A stretch of DNA of 64,000 bases, from contig JACPZK010000006.1 of NCBI GenBank assembly GCA_016195565.1, forward strand, positions 156,900 to 220,899, given 5' to 3'. Made by a program: the position numbers and the translations under genes. A model generated the notes under the pieces. That model saw nothing but the letters and a program-made list of their open reading frames with translations, ran no database searches and was not told where the DNA came from. The DNA comes from Nitrospirota bacterium. GTDB taxonomy: Bacteria > Nitrospirota > Thermodesulfovibrionia > Thermodesulfovibrionales > UBA1546. Position 1 is the stretch's first letter. Every line of letters begins with the position of its first letter. Below are positions 2,927 through 17,508 of this stretch, one piece after another.

Positions 2927-3071
2927 ATTTACTCCTTAAATCACATGTTATTTAGAATACTATTTTTCTTAATTATATTAAGGAGATAGCTCCTTGTCAA
3001 GAAGAAATTAGTTTAAATCTTAAAATAGCCAAGAATCCGGCCTCTGTGCTATTATAACAACAAGGAATTTT

Positions 3072-4535
3072 ATGGCATACACTGACCTGAGGAATTTTAT
3101 AAATCTTCTTGAAAAAAGGGGACTTTTGCACCGCATAAAGGCAGAAGTTGACCCCTTGCTTGAGATATCCGAGATTACAGACAGGATGTCGAAGAGTCCA
3201 GACGGCGGAAAGGCATTGCTGTTTGAAAATGTAAAAGGCTCTTCTTTTCCTGTTGCCGCAAACCTCTTCGGCTCATTTGAAAGGATGTGCCTCGCACTTG
3301 AAGTAAGCAAGCTTGATGACATAGCAAAGCGTATAGAGGACTTGCTTAATCAAGCGCCTCCAAAGACATTTCTTGAAAAAATTGCAATGCTTCCGAAGCT
3401 GATTGAGCTTTCAAAATATCTTCCTAAATATGTTAAAAGCGCGCCATGTCAGGAGGTCATAGAAAAAGACAACCCCGACCTTTCAAAATTTCCAATAATA
3501 AAATGCTGGCCTCATGACGGGCAGGCAGAAGACGAAGGAAGATTCATTACGCTTCCGATGGTCTTCACAAAAGACCCTGAGACAGAAAGACCCAACTGCG
3601 GGATGTACCGCATCCATATATACGATAAGAAAACAACAGGGATGCACTGGCATATACATAAGGACGGAGCACGGCATTATGAAAAATACAAAAAATCAGG
3701 CACGCGTATGCCTGCCGCAATTGCCGTTGGAGGCGACCCTGCTGTAATTTATTCTGCAAGCGCGCCTTTGCCGGAGGCTATAGACGAGATGCTCTTTGCA
3801 GGTTTTCTGAGAAAGGCTCCGGTAGAAATGGTGAAGTGCTTAACAAGTGATATTCAAGTCCCTGCAAACAGCGAGATGGTAATTGAAGGCTATCTTGAAC
3901 CCGGAGAGACACGCATCGAGGGGCCCTTCGGAGACCACACAGGTTTTTACTCTCCTGCAGAACCCTACCCTGTCTTTCATGTGACATGTATCACGCACAG
4001 GAAAGACATGATATACCCTGCAACGCTTGTAGGGAAACCTCCGATGGAAGACTGCTATATGGGAAAGGCAACAGAGCGGATATTTCTTCCATTACTAAGG
4101 CTGGATTTCCCTGAGATAAAAGACATAAATCTTCCGATGGAAGGCGTATTCCATAACTTCGCCCTTATATCCATAAAAAAGAGTTATCCGGGCCATGCAA
4201 AAAAGATAATACATGGGTTATGGGGAAAGGGACAGATGATGTTTGCAAAATTACTGATTGTTGTTGATGACGACGTTGATGTTCAGAACCTGTCATATAC
4301 GGCATGGAGAGTGCTTAACAATGTTGACTGGAGGAGGGATGTTGTGCTTTCAGAAGGCCCCCTGGATGCGCTTGACCATGCTGCAAACTGGCCAAGATAC
4401 GGGGCAAAGATGGGCATAGATGCAACAAGGAAGACGCGTGAAGAGGGGATGATGCGTGACTGGCCCGAAGAGATTCATATGACGGAAGAAATTAAGAAAC
4501 TTGTTGATAGAAGATGGAAAGAGTATGGATTTTAA
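3072..4535 (+). CDS. ubiD: UbiD family decarboxylase
   Basis: A 487-residue cytosolic (de)carboxylase of the prenyl-FMN dependent UbiD family, full length. Family blocks seen are the NCGMYRIHIYDKKTTGMHWH segment of the cofactor domain, the EGPFGDHTGFYS block, and the C-terminal DHAANWPRYGAKMGIDAT stretch. UbiD enzymes act in ubiquinone or menaquinone synthesis or on aromatic acids. The organism is probably an anaerobe, so a menaquinone or aromatic role is more likely than ubiquinone, but the substrate cannot be read from sequence. No ubiX (prenyl-FMN synthase) is nearby. It stands alone and divergent from ihfA. Confidence 0.88.
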   Translation: MAYTDLRNFINLLEKRGLLHRIKAEVDPLLEISEITDRMSKSPDGGKALLFENVKGSSFPVAANLFGSFERMCLALEVSKLDDIAKRIEDLLNQAPPKTFLEKIAMLPKLIELSKYLPKYVKSAPCQEVIEKDNPDLSKFPIIKCWPHDGQAEDEGRFITLPMVFTKDPETERPNCGMYRIHIYDKKTTGMHWHIHKDGARHYEKYKKSGTRMPAAIAVGGDPAVIYSASAPLPEAIDEMLFAGFLRKAPVEMVKCLTSDIQVPANSEMVIEGYLEPGETRIEGPFGDHTGFYSPAEPYPVFHVTCITHRKDMIYPATLVGKPPMEDCYMGKATERIFLPLLRLDFPEIKDINLPMEGVFHNFALISIKKSYPGHAKKIIHGLWGKGQMMFAKLLIVVDDDVDVQNLSYTAWRVLNNVDWRRDVVLSEGPLDALDHAANWPRYGAKMGIDATRKTREEGMMRDWPEEIHMTEEIKKLVDRRWKEYGF

Positions 4536-14287: not shown

Positions 14288-15571
14288 TTACTTTTTCTTC
14301 AACGCCCTTTCCACTGTTCTTATTGCACAGAACTCTCCGCACATGCTGCACACTTCGCTTTCAGTTGGAGGAATCTCTGCCCTCCATTCCCTTACCTTCT
14401 CAGGATTAAGGCTCAAGGCAATCTGGCCGTTCCAGTCAAGCGCCTTTCTGCACTTTGCCATCTGAATATCTTTATCAATAGCTCCTTTTATGCCCTTTGC
14501 TATGTCAGCGGCATGTGCAGCGAGCTTTGATACGATAACTCCTTCTTTCACGTCTTCTATGGTAGGAAGCCTTATATGCTCTGAAGGAGTAACATAACAG
14601 AGGAAATCAGCTCCGGCTGCTCCTGCAATCGCTCCTCCTATAGCTGCTGTTATGTGGTCATAACCCATTCCTATGTCTGTCACCAATGGCCCCAGAACAT
14701 AAAACGGCGCGCCCTTGCAAATCTCCTTTTCGAGCCTTACATTCAGCTCAACCTGATTCAAAGGAACATGGCCCGGCCCTTCGATAATAACCTGAATATT
14801 TTTCTCTACAGCCAGATCCCTTAATTCTCCGAGTGTGAGGAGTTCCTCTATCTGAGTCCTGTCTGTTGCATCTGCAAGGCATCCCGGACGCATCCCGTCT
14901 CCGAGGCTCAGGGTCATGTCATATTTACAGGCAATCTCAAGAAGCCTGTCATACTGCTCATAAAGAGGATTTTCTTTCTGATTGTATATCATCCATTCAA
15001 GGAGAAACGAGCCTCCTCTGCTTACTATGTCGAGAATCCTTCCTTCTTTTTTCAATCTCTCGACCGCCCTCATTGTGAGTCCCGAATGAACAGTAATGAA
15101 GTCGACGCCCTCTTCCGCATGTTCTTCTATTACTTTAAAAAGGTCGTCTGCTGTCATTTTTGCTATTGCGCCTTTCTTTTCAGCGGCACGAACAGCAGCC
15201 TCATAGATTGGAACTGTTCCAACTGCAACAGGAGATTTTTCAATCATCATCTTCCTGAGTTCTTTTATAGGCCCTCCTGTTGAAAGATCCATCACGGCAT
15301 CAGCGCCGTATTTAACAAGGACTTCAAGTTTTTCCATCTCATCGTCCACTGAAATCCTGTCTTTTGAGGTGCCGATATTGGCATTTATTTTTGTGCGCAT
15401 GTTCTTCCCGATACCCATAGGCTTTATTTTGTGGTTTATGTTTATCGGAATAACGCTCACGCCTGATGCAATATCTACCGAAAGCTGTTCGGGCGTTAAC
15501 CCCTCTTCAGAGGCAACAAGCTTTACCTCATCTGTGATAATCCCCTTTTTTGCCAGTTCTATTCTTGTCAT
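14288..15571 (-). CDS. thiC: Phosphomethylpyrimidine synthase
   Basis: A 427-residue radical SAM enzyme that turns aminoimidazole ribotide into the pyrimidine part of thiamine. The C-terminal cluster motif CSMCGEFC is complete, and central blocks such as GDGMRPGCLADATD, IEGPGHVPLNQ and GMGYDHITAAIGGA match ThiC. The frame is open 14 codons further upstream, but those codons lie in a repeat; the ATG at 15571 has a GGAG site 11 bases upstream and is the better start. It is the last gene of the thiS-thiG-thiE-thiC group. Confidence 0.95.
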   Translation of the reverse strand: MTRIELAKKGIITDEVKLVASEEGLTPEQLSVDIASGVSVIPININHKIKPMGIGKNMRTKINANIGTSKDRISVDDEMEKLEVLVKYGADAVMDLSTGGPIKELRKMMIEKSPVAVGTVPIYEAAVRAAEKKGAIAKMTADDLFKVIEEHAEEGVDFITVHSGLTMRAVERLKKEGRILDIVSRGGSFLLEWMIYNQKENPLYEQYDRLLEIACKYDMTLSLGDGMRPGCLADATDRTQIEELLTLGELRDLAVEKNIQVIIEGPGHVPLNQVELNVRLEKEICKGAPFYVLGPLVTDIGMGYDHITAAIGGAIAGAAGADFLCYVTPSEHIRLPTIEDVKEGVIVSKLAAHAADIAKGIKGAIDKDIQMAKCRKALDWNGQIALSLNPEKVREWRAEIPPTESEVCSMCGEFCAIRTVERALKKK

Positions 15572-15588
15572 TTTGCTATTCTCCAATT

Positions 15589-15682
15589 TGTCATTGCGAG
15601 TGAAACGAAGCAATCTCGTCTTTTGAGTTTGTTGCGGCTGATCTTAACCAAGATTGCCACGGGCTTCGCCCTCGCAATGACA
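15589..15682. repeat. TGTCATTGCGAG element between thiE and thiC
   Basis: Begins TGTCATTGCGAGTGAAACG and ends GGGCTTCGCCCTCGCAATGACA. It overlaps the last 39 bases of thiE, so the ThiE tail CHCEGEARGNLG is translated repeat. Confidence 0.85.
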
Positions 15683-16321
15683 TTTCAACCTTAGAAAACT
15701 CAAATATTTTTCTGTTTCCCCTTTAATCTTTTTAGCCCCTAAAATTCCACTTATCAATGCAATGCCATCAGCGCCTGCATCCATAACCTCTTTAATCTTA
15801 TTCTCTTTAATTCCGCCAATAGCAAAAACCGGAATTGAAATCTCAGCCTTTGTTTTTCTGATAATATCAACTCCGAGAGGCTGGCCATATTTCAGTTTTG
15901 ACGGTGTTTTATAAACAGGGCCCAGTGTTATAAAATCAGCGCCTTCCTTCTCTGCCTGTTTTGCCTCTTCGATGCTGTGCGCTGATACGCCTATCATAAA
16001 TTTATCTTTGACAATTTTTCTTACAGCATAAGCAGGCATGCTCTTCTGCCCAAGATGAACACCATCAGCCTCAACAGACAGTGCAATATCAACCCTGTCA
16101 TTAATAAATAATTTCGCCCTGTATTTATCTGCTATTTCCCTCATTCTGTATGCCATATCAAGCAATTCCCTTGTACCTAAATCCTTTTCTCTTAACTGCA
16201 CTGCTTTCACACCGCCCTTTAACGCCGCCCTAACAGCAGGGATTAGGGCTTGGGGATTAGGGATTAGTTTTCTATCTGTTATTAAATAAAGTTTAAAATT
16301 AAGTACGTCTTTTCTTTTCAC
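15644..16321 (-). CDS. thiE: Thiamine-phosphate synthase
   Basis: A 225-residue TIM-barrel enzyme that joins the pyrimidine and thiazole units of thiamine. Core motifs are present: VQLREKDL, FINDRVDIAL, DGVHLGQ, GVSAHS and LGPVYKTPSK, then AIGGI. Two parts are repeat-derived. Near residues 19-28 the loop KLIPNPQALIP is encoded by a G-rich period-7 array, and the last 12 residues come from a TGTCATTGCGAG element. Neither touches the motif residues. It lies between the damaged thiG and thiC in the riboswitch-controlled operon. Confidence 0.92.
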   Translation of the reverse strand: MKRKDVLNFKLYLITDRKLIPNPQALIPAVRAALKGGVKAVQLREKDLGTRELLDMAYRMREIADKYRAKLFINDRVDIALSVEADGVHLGQKSMPAYAVRKIVKDKFMIGVSAHSIEEAKQAEKEGADFITLGPVYKTPSKLKYGQPLGVDIIRKTKAEISIPVFAIGGIKENKIKEVMDAGADGIALISGILGAKKIKGETEKYLSFLRLKCHCEGEARGNLG

Positions 16322-16347: not shown

Positions 16348-16899
16348 TTAAAGCATTCCCTCAATCGGACTGCTCGCAGCAGCATAAAGTTTTTTAGGAA
16401 TCCTTCCTGCCTTATACGCAAGCCTGCCCGCAATCACCGCATGCTTCATAGCGCTTGCCATTGCAATCGGATCTTTTGCCCCTGCAATCGCAGTGTTAAG
16501 AAGCACCGCATCACAGCCTAATTCCATCGCAACAGCAACATCAGACGCAGTTCCTACACCAGCGTCCACAATAACCGGCGCCTTCACTGTCTCTAAAATA
16601 ATCCTGATATTGTATGGGTTCCTTATTCCAAGTCCAGAGCCTATTGGAGCAGCCAACTCCTCAACATTGTAACAGCCGGCAGTATTCGGAAGAATCTTGT
16701 ATTTCCTGGGATCAATATAGTCAAACAGGTTTTCGGATTTCCTGTCTATGATATTCACCCTTCTTACAGCAACAGTGACAACATCAGCGCCTGACGCCTC
16801 AATAGCCTTCTTTGTCTCCTCAAAGTCCTTATACTTCCCTGTCCCAACCCAGAGACGGGATTTAAACTCTATCCCTTTAATTATAAACTTATCCTCCAT
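16348..16899 (-). CDS. thiG: Thiazole synthase with a large internal deletion
   Basis: Residues 1-79 match the first part of ThiG ([39 protein letters not shown]). Then the sequence jumps directly to [20 protein letters not shown] and continues to the normal end IEGML. Family members are about 255 residues; this one is 183. About 70 residues are missing in frame, including the MIKVEVIG region whose lysine forms the Schiff base with deoxyxylulose phosphate. It is probably not active as a thiazole synthase, unless the deletion is an assembly error. The start at 16899 has an AAGGAG site; the frame also opens at a GTG 6 bases earlier. Confidence 0.85.
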
Positions 16900-16950
16900 A
16901 TACACTCCTTTTAACCTGATTTATTCACAAATATAAGCAGGAATGGTTTG

Positions 16951-17107
16951 AGCGACATTCGAGATTTTTCGGTAATAGTTCTTGGCGAATTGGAGCGTCT
17001 ACAGCCTCGACTGTTTGAGTTTCCCGAATATTTCGGGAAACGAGTTTCGAGGATGTAGCGTAAAGAGCCTTAGAACTGTCGAGAAATATCGGCAGAAAGC
17101 GAATGCC
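16951..17107. repeat. Long imperfect palindrome between thiS and thiG
   Basis: A region of about 157 bases. The centre TTTCCCGAATATTTCGGGAAA is flanked by CTACAGCCTCGA and its near complement TCGAGGATGTAG. The outer arms CATTCGAGA...AGTTCT and AGAACTGTCGAG...CGAATG also pair in part. It has no gene and looks like a small non-coding mobile or structured element inside the thiamine operon. Confidence 0.6.
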
Positions 17108-17121
17108 ATTTCTGCTTATTA

Positions 17122-17328
17122 TCATCTGTTTCCTCCTCCCACAAAATTCACAATCTCAATCCTGTCCCCATCTTTCAGCCTGCAACTGCCATAATCGGAC
17201 TTCTTTATTATTGAAAGGTTTACCTCAACAGCAACCCTCTCAGGCTTAACGCAAAGCTCTCCAAGAAGCTCCTGAAGAGTCTCAGCCTTTGATACTTCTA
17301 AATCTTCTCCGTTTATAACCAGCCTCAT
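17122..17328 (-). CDS. thiS: Sulfur carrier protein ThiS
   Basis: A ubiquitin-like protein of 68 residues from the ATG at 17328. It supplies sulfur for the thiazole ring. The fold pattern (MRLVINGEDLEV, TLQELLGEL, VAVEVNLSIIKKSDY, LKDGDRIEIVNFVGGG) is clear. The carrier normally ends in GG, which is adenylated; here the sequence ends GGGNR, two residues past the glycines. The frame also opens at 17346, but that ATG is inside the riboswitch terminator. No good ribosome site precedes 17328, since the bases upstream are the terminator T-run. Confidence 0.82.
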   Translation of the reverse strand: MRLVINGEDLEVSKAETLQELLGELCVKPERVAVEVNLSIIKKSDYGSCRLKDGDRIEIVNFVGGGNR

Positions 17329-17329
17329 A

Positions 17330-17364
17330 AAAATAAAAAACCGCATCCCTCGAAAAGGATACGG
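17330..17364 (-). terminator. Riboswitch-controlled terminator of the thi operon
   Basis: The stem CCGTATCC/GGATGCGG is followed by TTTTTTATTTTT on the minus strand. It comes a few bases after the TPP aptamer and directly before thiS, so it is a transcription attenuator. Confidence 0.82.
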
Positions 17365-17367
17365 CCT

Positions 17368-17460
17368 GCCTTCCCATCCCTACGCCGGCATTATCCGTAT
17401 CAGGTTCATGGGGTCTCCCGATAAAATCGGGACTCTCAGGCTCTCGCCTCCCCCAGGGGT
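17368..17460 (-). promoter_or_regulatory. TPP riboswitch aptamer
   Basis: On the minus strand the THI-box core is read in order: GGGGGAGGC, GCCTGAGAG, a P3 stem of CCCGAT/ATCGGG, ACCCC, GAACCTGAT, GGATAATGCC, and GGCGTAGGGA. It should bind thiamine pyrophosphate and shut off the thiS-thiG-thiE-thiC operon through the downstream terminator. Confidence 0.95.
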
Positions 17461-17508
17461 TGATTTAAGTATAGATTAGTTTTTTAACCAATGTCAAACT
17501 TAGATAGA

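Follow-up and report, generated by a model that had tools for sequence, protein, structure and literature searches.

A recent in-frame deletion has probably inactivated the only thiG gene in the assembled genome of a Nitrospirota bacterium

The window, a stretch of 64,000 nucleotides from a Nitrospirota bacterium (GenBank assembly GCA_016195565.1, contig JACPZK010000006.1, here C6), carries a thi operon with the gene order thiS-thiG-thiE-thiC and a TPP riboswitch at its head (Table 1). It belongs to a genome of 2.3 Mb in 33 contigs that is 99.1% complete. In this genome, the operon-leading riboswitch is the only TPP riboswitch found; a second one, e.g. on a transporter gene, was not detected. 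ThiS has residues beyond its Gly-Gly end (GGGNR), and the proteins of relatives terminate in GGGQWKIS, GGGCLK or GGGM or stop at GGG. Such a tail would have to be trimmed before thiocarboxylate formation.

Table 1. Coordinates of the thi operon features in the window
Feature	Position	Strand	Evidence and remarks
TPP riboswitch, head of thi operon	17360..17464	-	Rfam RF00059, 62.9 bits
thiS, sulfur carrier, intact, C-terminus GGGNR	17122..17346	-	TIGR01683, 78.6 bits
thiS-thiG spacer with dispersed element of ~190 bp (16925-17110)	16906..17121	-	14 matching places in genome, itself included
thiG with 219-bp internal in-frame deletion	16348..16905	-	185 aa vs 256 aa full length in relatives; ORF, Pfam ThiG in two blocks, alignment to relatives
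Deletion junction between GTTGAGGA and GTTGGCTG, coding strand	16657..16658	-	DNA alignment to G001, G003, G004, G005
thiE, thiamine phosphate synthase, intact	15644..16321	-	TIGR00693, 217 bits
thiC, HMP-P synthase, intact	14288..15613	-	PF01964, 644 bits; TIGR00190, 627 bits

ThiG, the enzyme for the thiazole half of vitamin B1, synthesizes carboxythiazole phosphate from DXP, the ThiS thiocarboxylate and dehydroglycine, and its K96 (B. subtilis numbering) forms a Schiff base with deoxyxylulose phosphate. In the window, the Pfam ThiG profile (PF05690, 247 positions) is matched within a single frame in two blocks, 2-77 and 151-247; profile positions 78-150 are the part of ThiG that is gone. 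The two blocks together score 230 bits, the family cut-off being 23. The locus is covered by four genomes of the same genus (G001, G003, G004 and G005), and compared with each of them the gap measures exactly 219 bp (73 codons). Each of these homologues encodes 256 aa, and the retained thiG DNA is 93-95% identical to them. The segment absent from the window protein comprises residues 81-153 of G001 ThiG, which aligns without gaps to B. subtilis ThiG (1TYG) with an offset of three. K99 and E101 of G001, aligned with B. subtilis K96 and E98, both lie inside this segment. This means, the equivalent of the Schiff-base lysine is missing, and D182 (B. subtilis numbering; D185 in G001) is retained in the VIVDAGVG block. 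The original prediction had claimed an in-frame loss of about 70 residues at 16640-16670, including the Schiff-base lysine, between conserved flanks. All of this is borne out by the two Pfam blocks in one ORF and by the alignments to 1TYG and the congeners: the exact size is 73 residues, and the breakpoint at 16657/16658 falls inside the claimed site.

In both flanks, the window gene resembles the known ThiG thiazole synthases (PF05690; 1TYG, 1XM3, 1WV2, 5Z9Y), but it differs from them in the absence of profile positions 78-150 with the K96 and E98 equivalents. Instead of a full (beta/alpha)8 barrel of about 250 residues, 185 aa are left. In a predicted model of the full-length protein, three strands and three helices of the barrel fall within the missing segment. 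In the predicted model of the short ThiG, the confidence is below 50 from residue 76 to residue 93, a stretch that includes the junction, and a structure search with this model returned ThiG and other TIM-barrel enzymes and nothing new. From sequence and models, the window ThiG should be a dead thiazole synthase.

The dispersed element in the thiS-thiG spacer, whose other genomic copies are 66-86% identical to it, was considered as the cause of the deletion. It was rejected because some relatives with an intact thiG also carry inserted sequence in the same spacer. Elsewhere in the window, at 3024-4535, lies a gene whose product we take to be a UbiD-like decarboxylase; its G001 homologue contains a 14-aa insertion, apparently a piece of a short dispersed repeat.

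Relatives in the genus, the family and the order keep the full ThiG barrel. A profile search in the window's own genome and 60 relatives (61 genomes in total) found ThiG matches in 58, most of them with a single match over essentially the whole profile. In G041, the match is split across two neighbouring pieces, and the only match in G024 is weak and probably represents another protein. Partial ThiG occurs in three genomes: the window's own, G006, where it lies at a contig end, and G014. A degenerate pattern search for the junction in 150 genomes of the class detected it in the window's own genome and in none of the 149 others, so that a chance effect of the alignment can be dismissed. Within the genus, G002 keeps the larB-gpsA-fabH order and has no thi genes beside larB (L194, G002:C7:18000-34000); neither ThiC nor ThiG was found in its assembly, which is 74% complete. 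A pathway loss within the genus is plausible from G002, although the incompleteness of this assembly makes it a weak case. By contrast, G007 was rejected as an independent thi loss: larB is missing there, too, so that the absence of the thi genes may reflect incompleteness.

Comparison of the 183 retained thiG codons with the four congeners gave a count of nine private changes, all of them synonymous. This pattern indicates that purifying selection acted on thiG along almost the whole of its branch. In the absence of any private non-synonymous change, the deletion would therefore have to be either very young or not real. Of two features typical of a pseudogene, one, a lesion in a gene that is intact in close relatives, is present, and the other, relaxed selection on the remainder, is not seen. 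The latter would be expected if the lesion were very recent.

Is the deletion real? The exact breakpoints share zero bases, and the only nearby repeat noted is the hexamer GATGCC. Slipped mispairing between the GATGCC hexamers was rejected: it would have removed 215 bp and shifted the frame, and a further TGCC is absent from the observed junction. Since no bases are shared at the breakpoints, a collapse of a repeat or k-mer by the assembler is disfavoured as well. Furthermore, 300 kb of contig C6 were compared with G001 by global alignment of ORF pairs. No Ns are present in this part of the contig, and among 317 reciprocal-best ORF pairs with more than 70% identity, no highly conserved protein other than ThiG has a large gap. 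Besides thiG, large gaps occur in just one gene, which encodes a repetitive protein with several of them. This protein, at C6:282596-285076 outside the window, shows unit-sized gaps compared to G001 (827 vs 1071 aa), probably due to variation in repeat number.

With repeat collapse disfavoured, what is left of the collapsed gap offered as one option by the original prediction are other artefacts of assembly or sampling: The organism might have a full-length thiG, and the gap might originate from a chimeric read, an error in gap filling or a deletion in a minority strain. We regard this as less likely than a real deletion, but as a possibility to be taken seriously. It agrees with the pristine state of the retained codons, with an otherwise complete operon including its riboswitch, with the full length of thiG in all congeners covering the locus and with the occurrence of the deletion in one genome only. 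Also in its favour, the salvage genes searched for (Thi4, a ThiM-type kinase, a second TPP riboswitch) were not found. However, the breakpoints contain no collapsible repeat, the compared part of C6 is free of Ns, and apart from the one repetitive protein, the other genes compared display no similar gap. Moreover, the frame is exactly kept, which chance would achieve in one of three cases, and the missing DNA was not left on another contig.

If the deletion is real, ThiG might have been replaced by another enzyme encoded elsewhere in the genome, either a second ThiG or one of the Thi4 type. The original prediction had named the use of another ThiG as an option and had proposed both a search for a second thiG and a comparison with thiG of close relatives. 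The comparison found thiG intact in all four congeners covering the locus, and the search found no second gene: In the whole assembly, PF05690 matches the window thiG alone, and the missing 219-bp segment was not detected elsewhere at the DNA level. An intact Thi4 (PF01946) was not found in the genome either, the matches covering just 36-66 of 235 profile positions. They are all located near the N-terminal end, mostly inside larger reading frames, as expected of a dinucleotide-binding fold in other enzymes. About 1% of the genome is lacking from the assembly, which leaves room for an unassembled gene; nevertheless, a replacement enzyme is highly improbable. Alternatively, the short ThiG could be a working or repurposed protein under selection, for instance a partner, a regulator or a part of a non-canonical thiazole synthase. 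The conserved frame, the intact operon and a retained part devoid of private amino-acid changes speak for such a role. Yet the relatives in genus, family and order maintain the full barrel, the class survey yielded no second case of the junction, the equivalents of both the Schiff-base lysine and the glutamate close to it have been lost, and the model has low confidence at the junction. In addition, a brief interval since the deletion would suffice to account for pristine codons. Repurposing is, hence, very unlikely, and there is scarcely any chance that the truncated ThiG functions in a thiazole route, or in some other role, for which the Schiff-base lysine is dispensable.

The reading we prefer, with a probability of roughly 60%, is that a recent, inactivating in-frame deletion of 219 bp struck the one thiG of this genome. 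Loss of function is also the leading one among the options of the original prediction, which had considered that thiazole is not made by the ThiG route; the lysine is gone and no second ThiG was found. As the reading frame is kept, the downstream genes thiE and thiC should be unaffected. The 185-aa product would lack three beta/alpha units and the Schiff-base lysine and, for this reason, would not synthesize carboxythiazole phosphate. Such a cell would depend on an external supply of thiamine, thiamine phosphate or a usable thiazole. We infer for the sequenced genotype a loss of ThiG activity and a thiazole or thiamine auxotrophy. A plausible pathway loss in the genus, as in G002, would fit inactivation. 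Against it, the rest of the operon and the riboswitch look fully maintained, the retained codons are as pristine as one would expect had the enzyme remained in use to the present, and the deletion is present in one assembly only. Furthermore, no salvage route is evident among ThiM-type kinase, Thi4 and further TPP riboswitches: the genome has no match to the ThiM-type thiazole kinase profile (PF02110). ThiH was dropped as a marker of the pathway state. None of the 16 genomes searched from the order has a ThiH match above cut-off and, therefore, the absence of ThiH is uninformative on the thiG lesion.

Inactivated or missing thiG genes are already known from other bacteria (PMC3091646, PMC11346370). 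In Sodalis glossinidius, thiG is a pseudogene in an otherwise recognisable thiamine pathway (PMC3091646). Inactivation of thiG would be common to both organisms, but in S. glossinidius, several further thi genes, including thiS, thiE and thiC, are listed as pseudogenes, whereas in the window genome thiG alone is affected, and in frame. For S. glossinidius, a salvage route with thiM has been proposed (PMC3091646), while a match to a ThiM-type kinase is lacking here. An E. coli thiG deletion mutant depends on exogenous thiamine or carboxythiazole, and ThiM has been linked to the use of carboxythiazole (PMC5899164). E. coli possesses ThiM, in contrast to the window genome without a PF02110 match. 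The window thiG deletion adds a further case to a familiar type of event. In profile-based presence/absence calls, this genome would count as thiG-positive (230 bits) despite the lost active-site lysine, which is a warning for such surveys. If real, the deletion would show the loss of thiamine prototrophy caught at its first step, with one enzyme out and the rest of the operon untouched.
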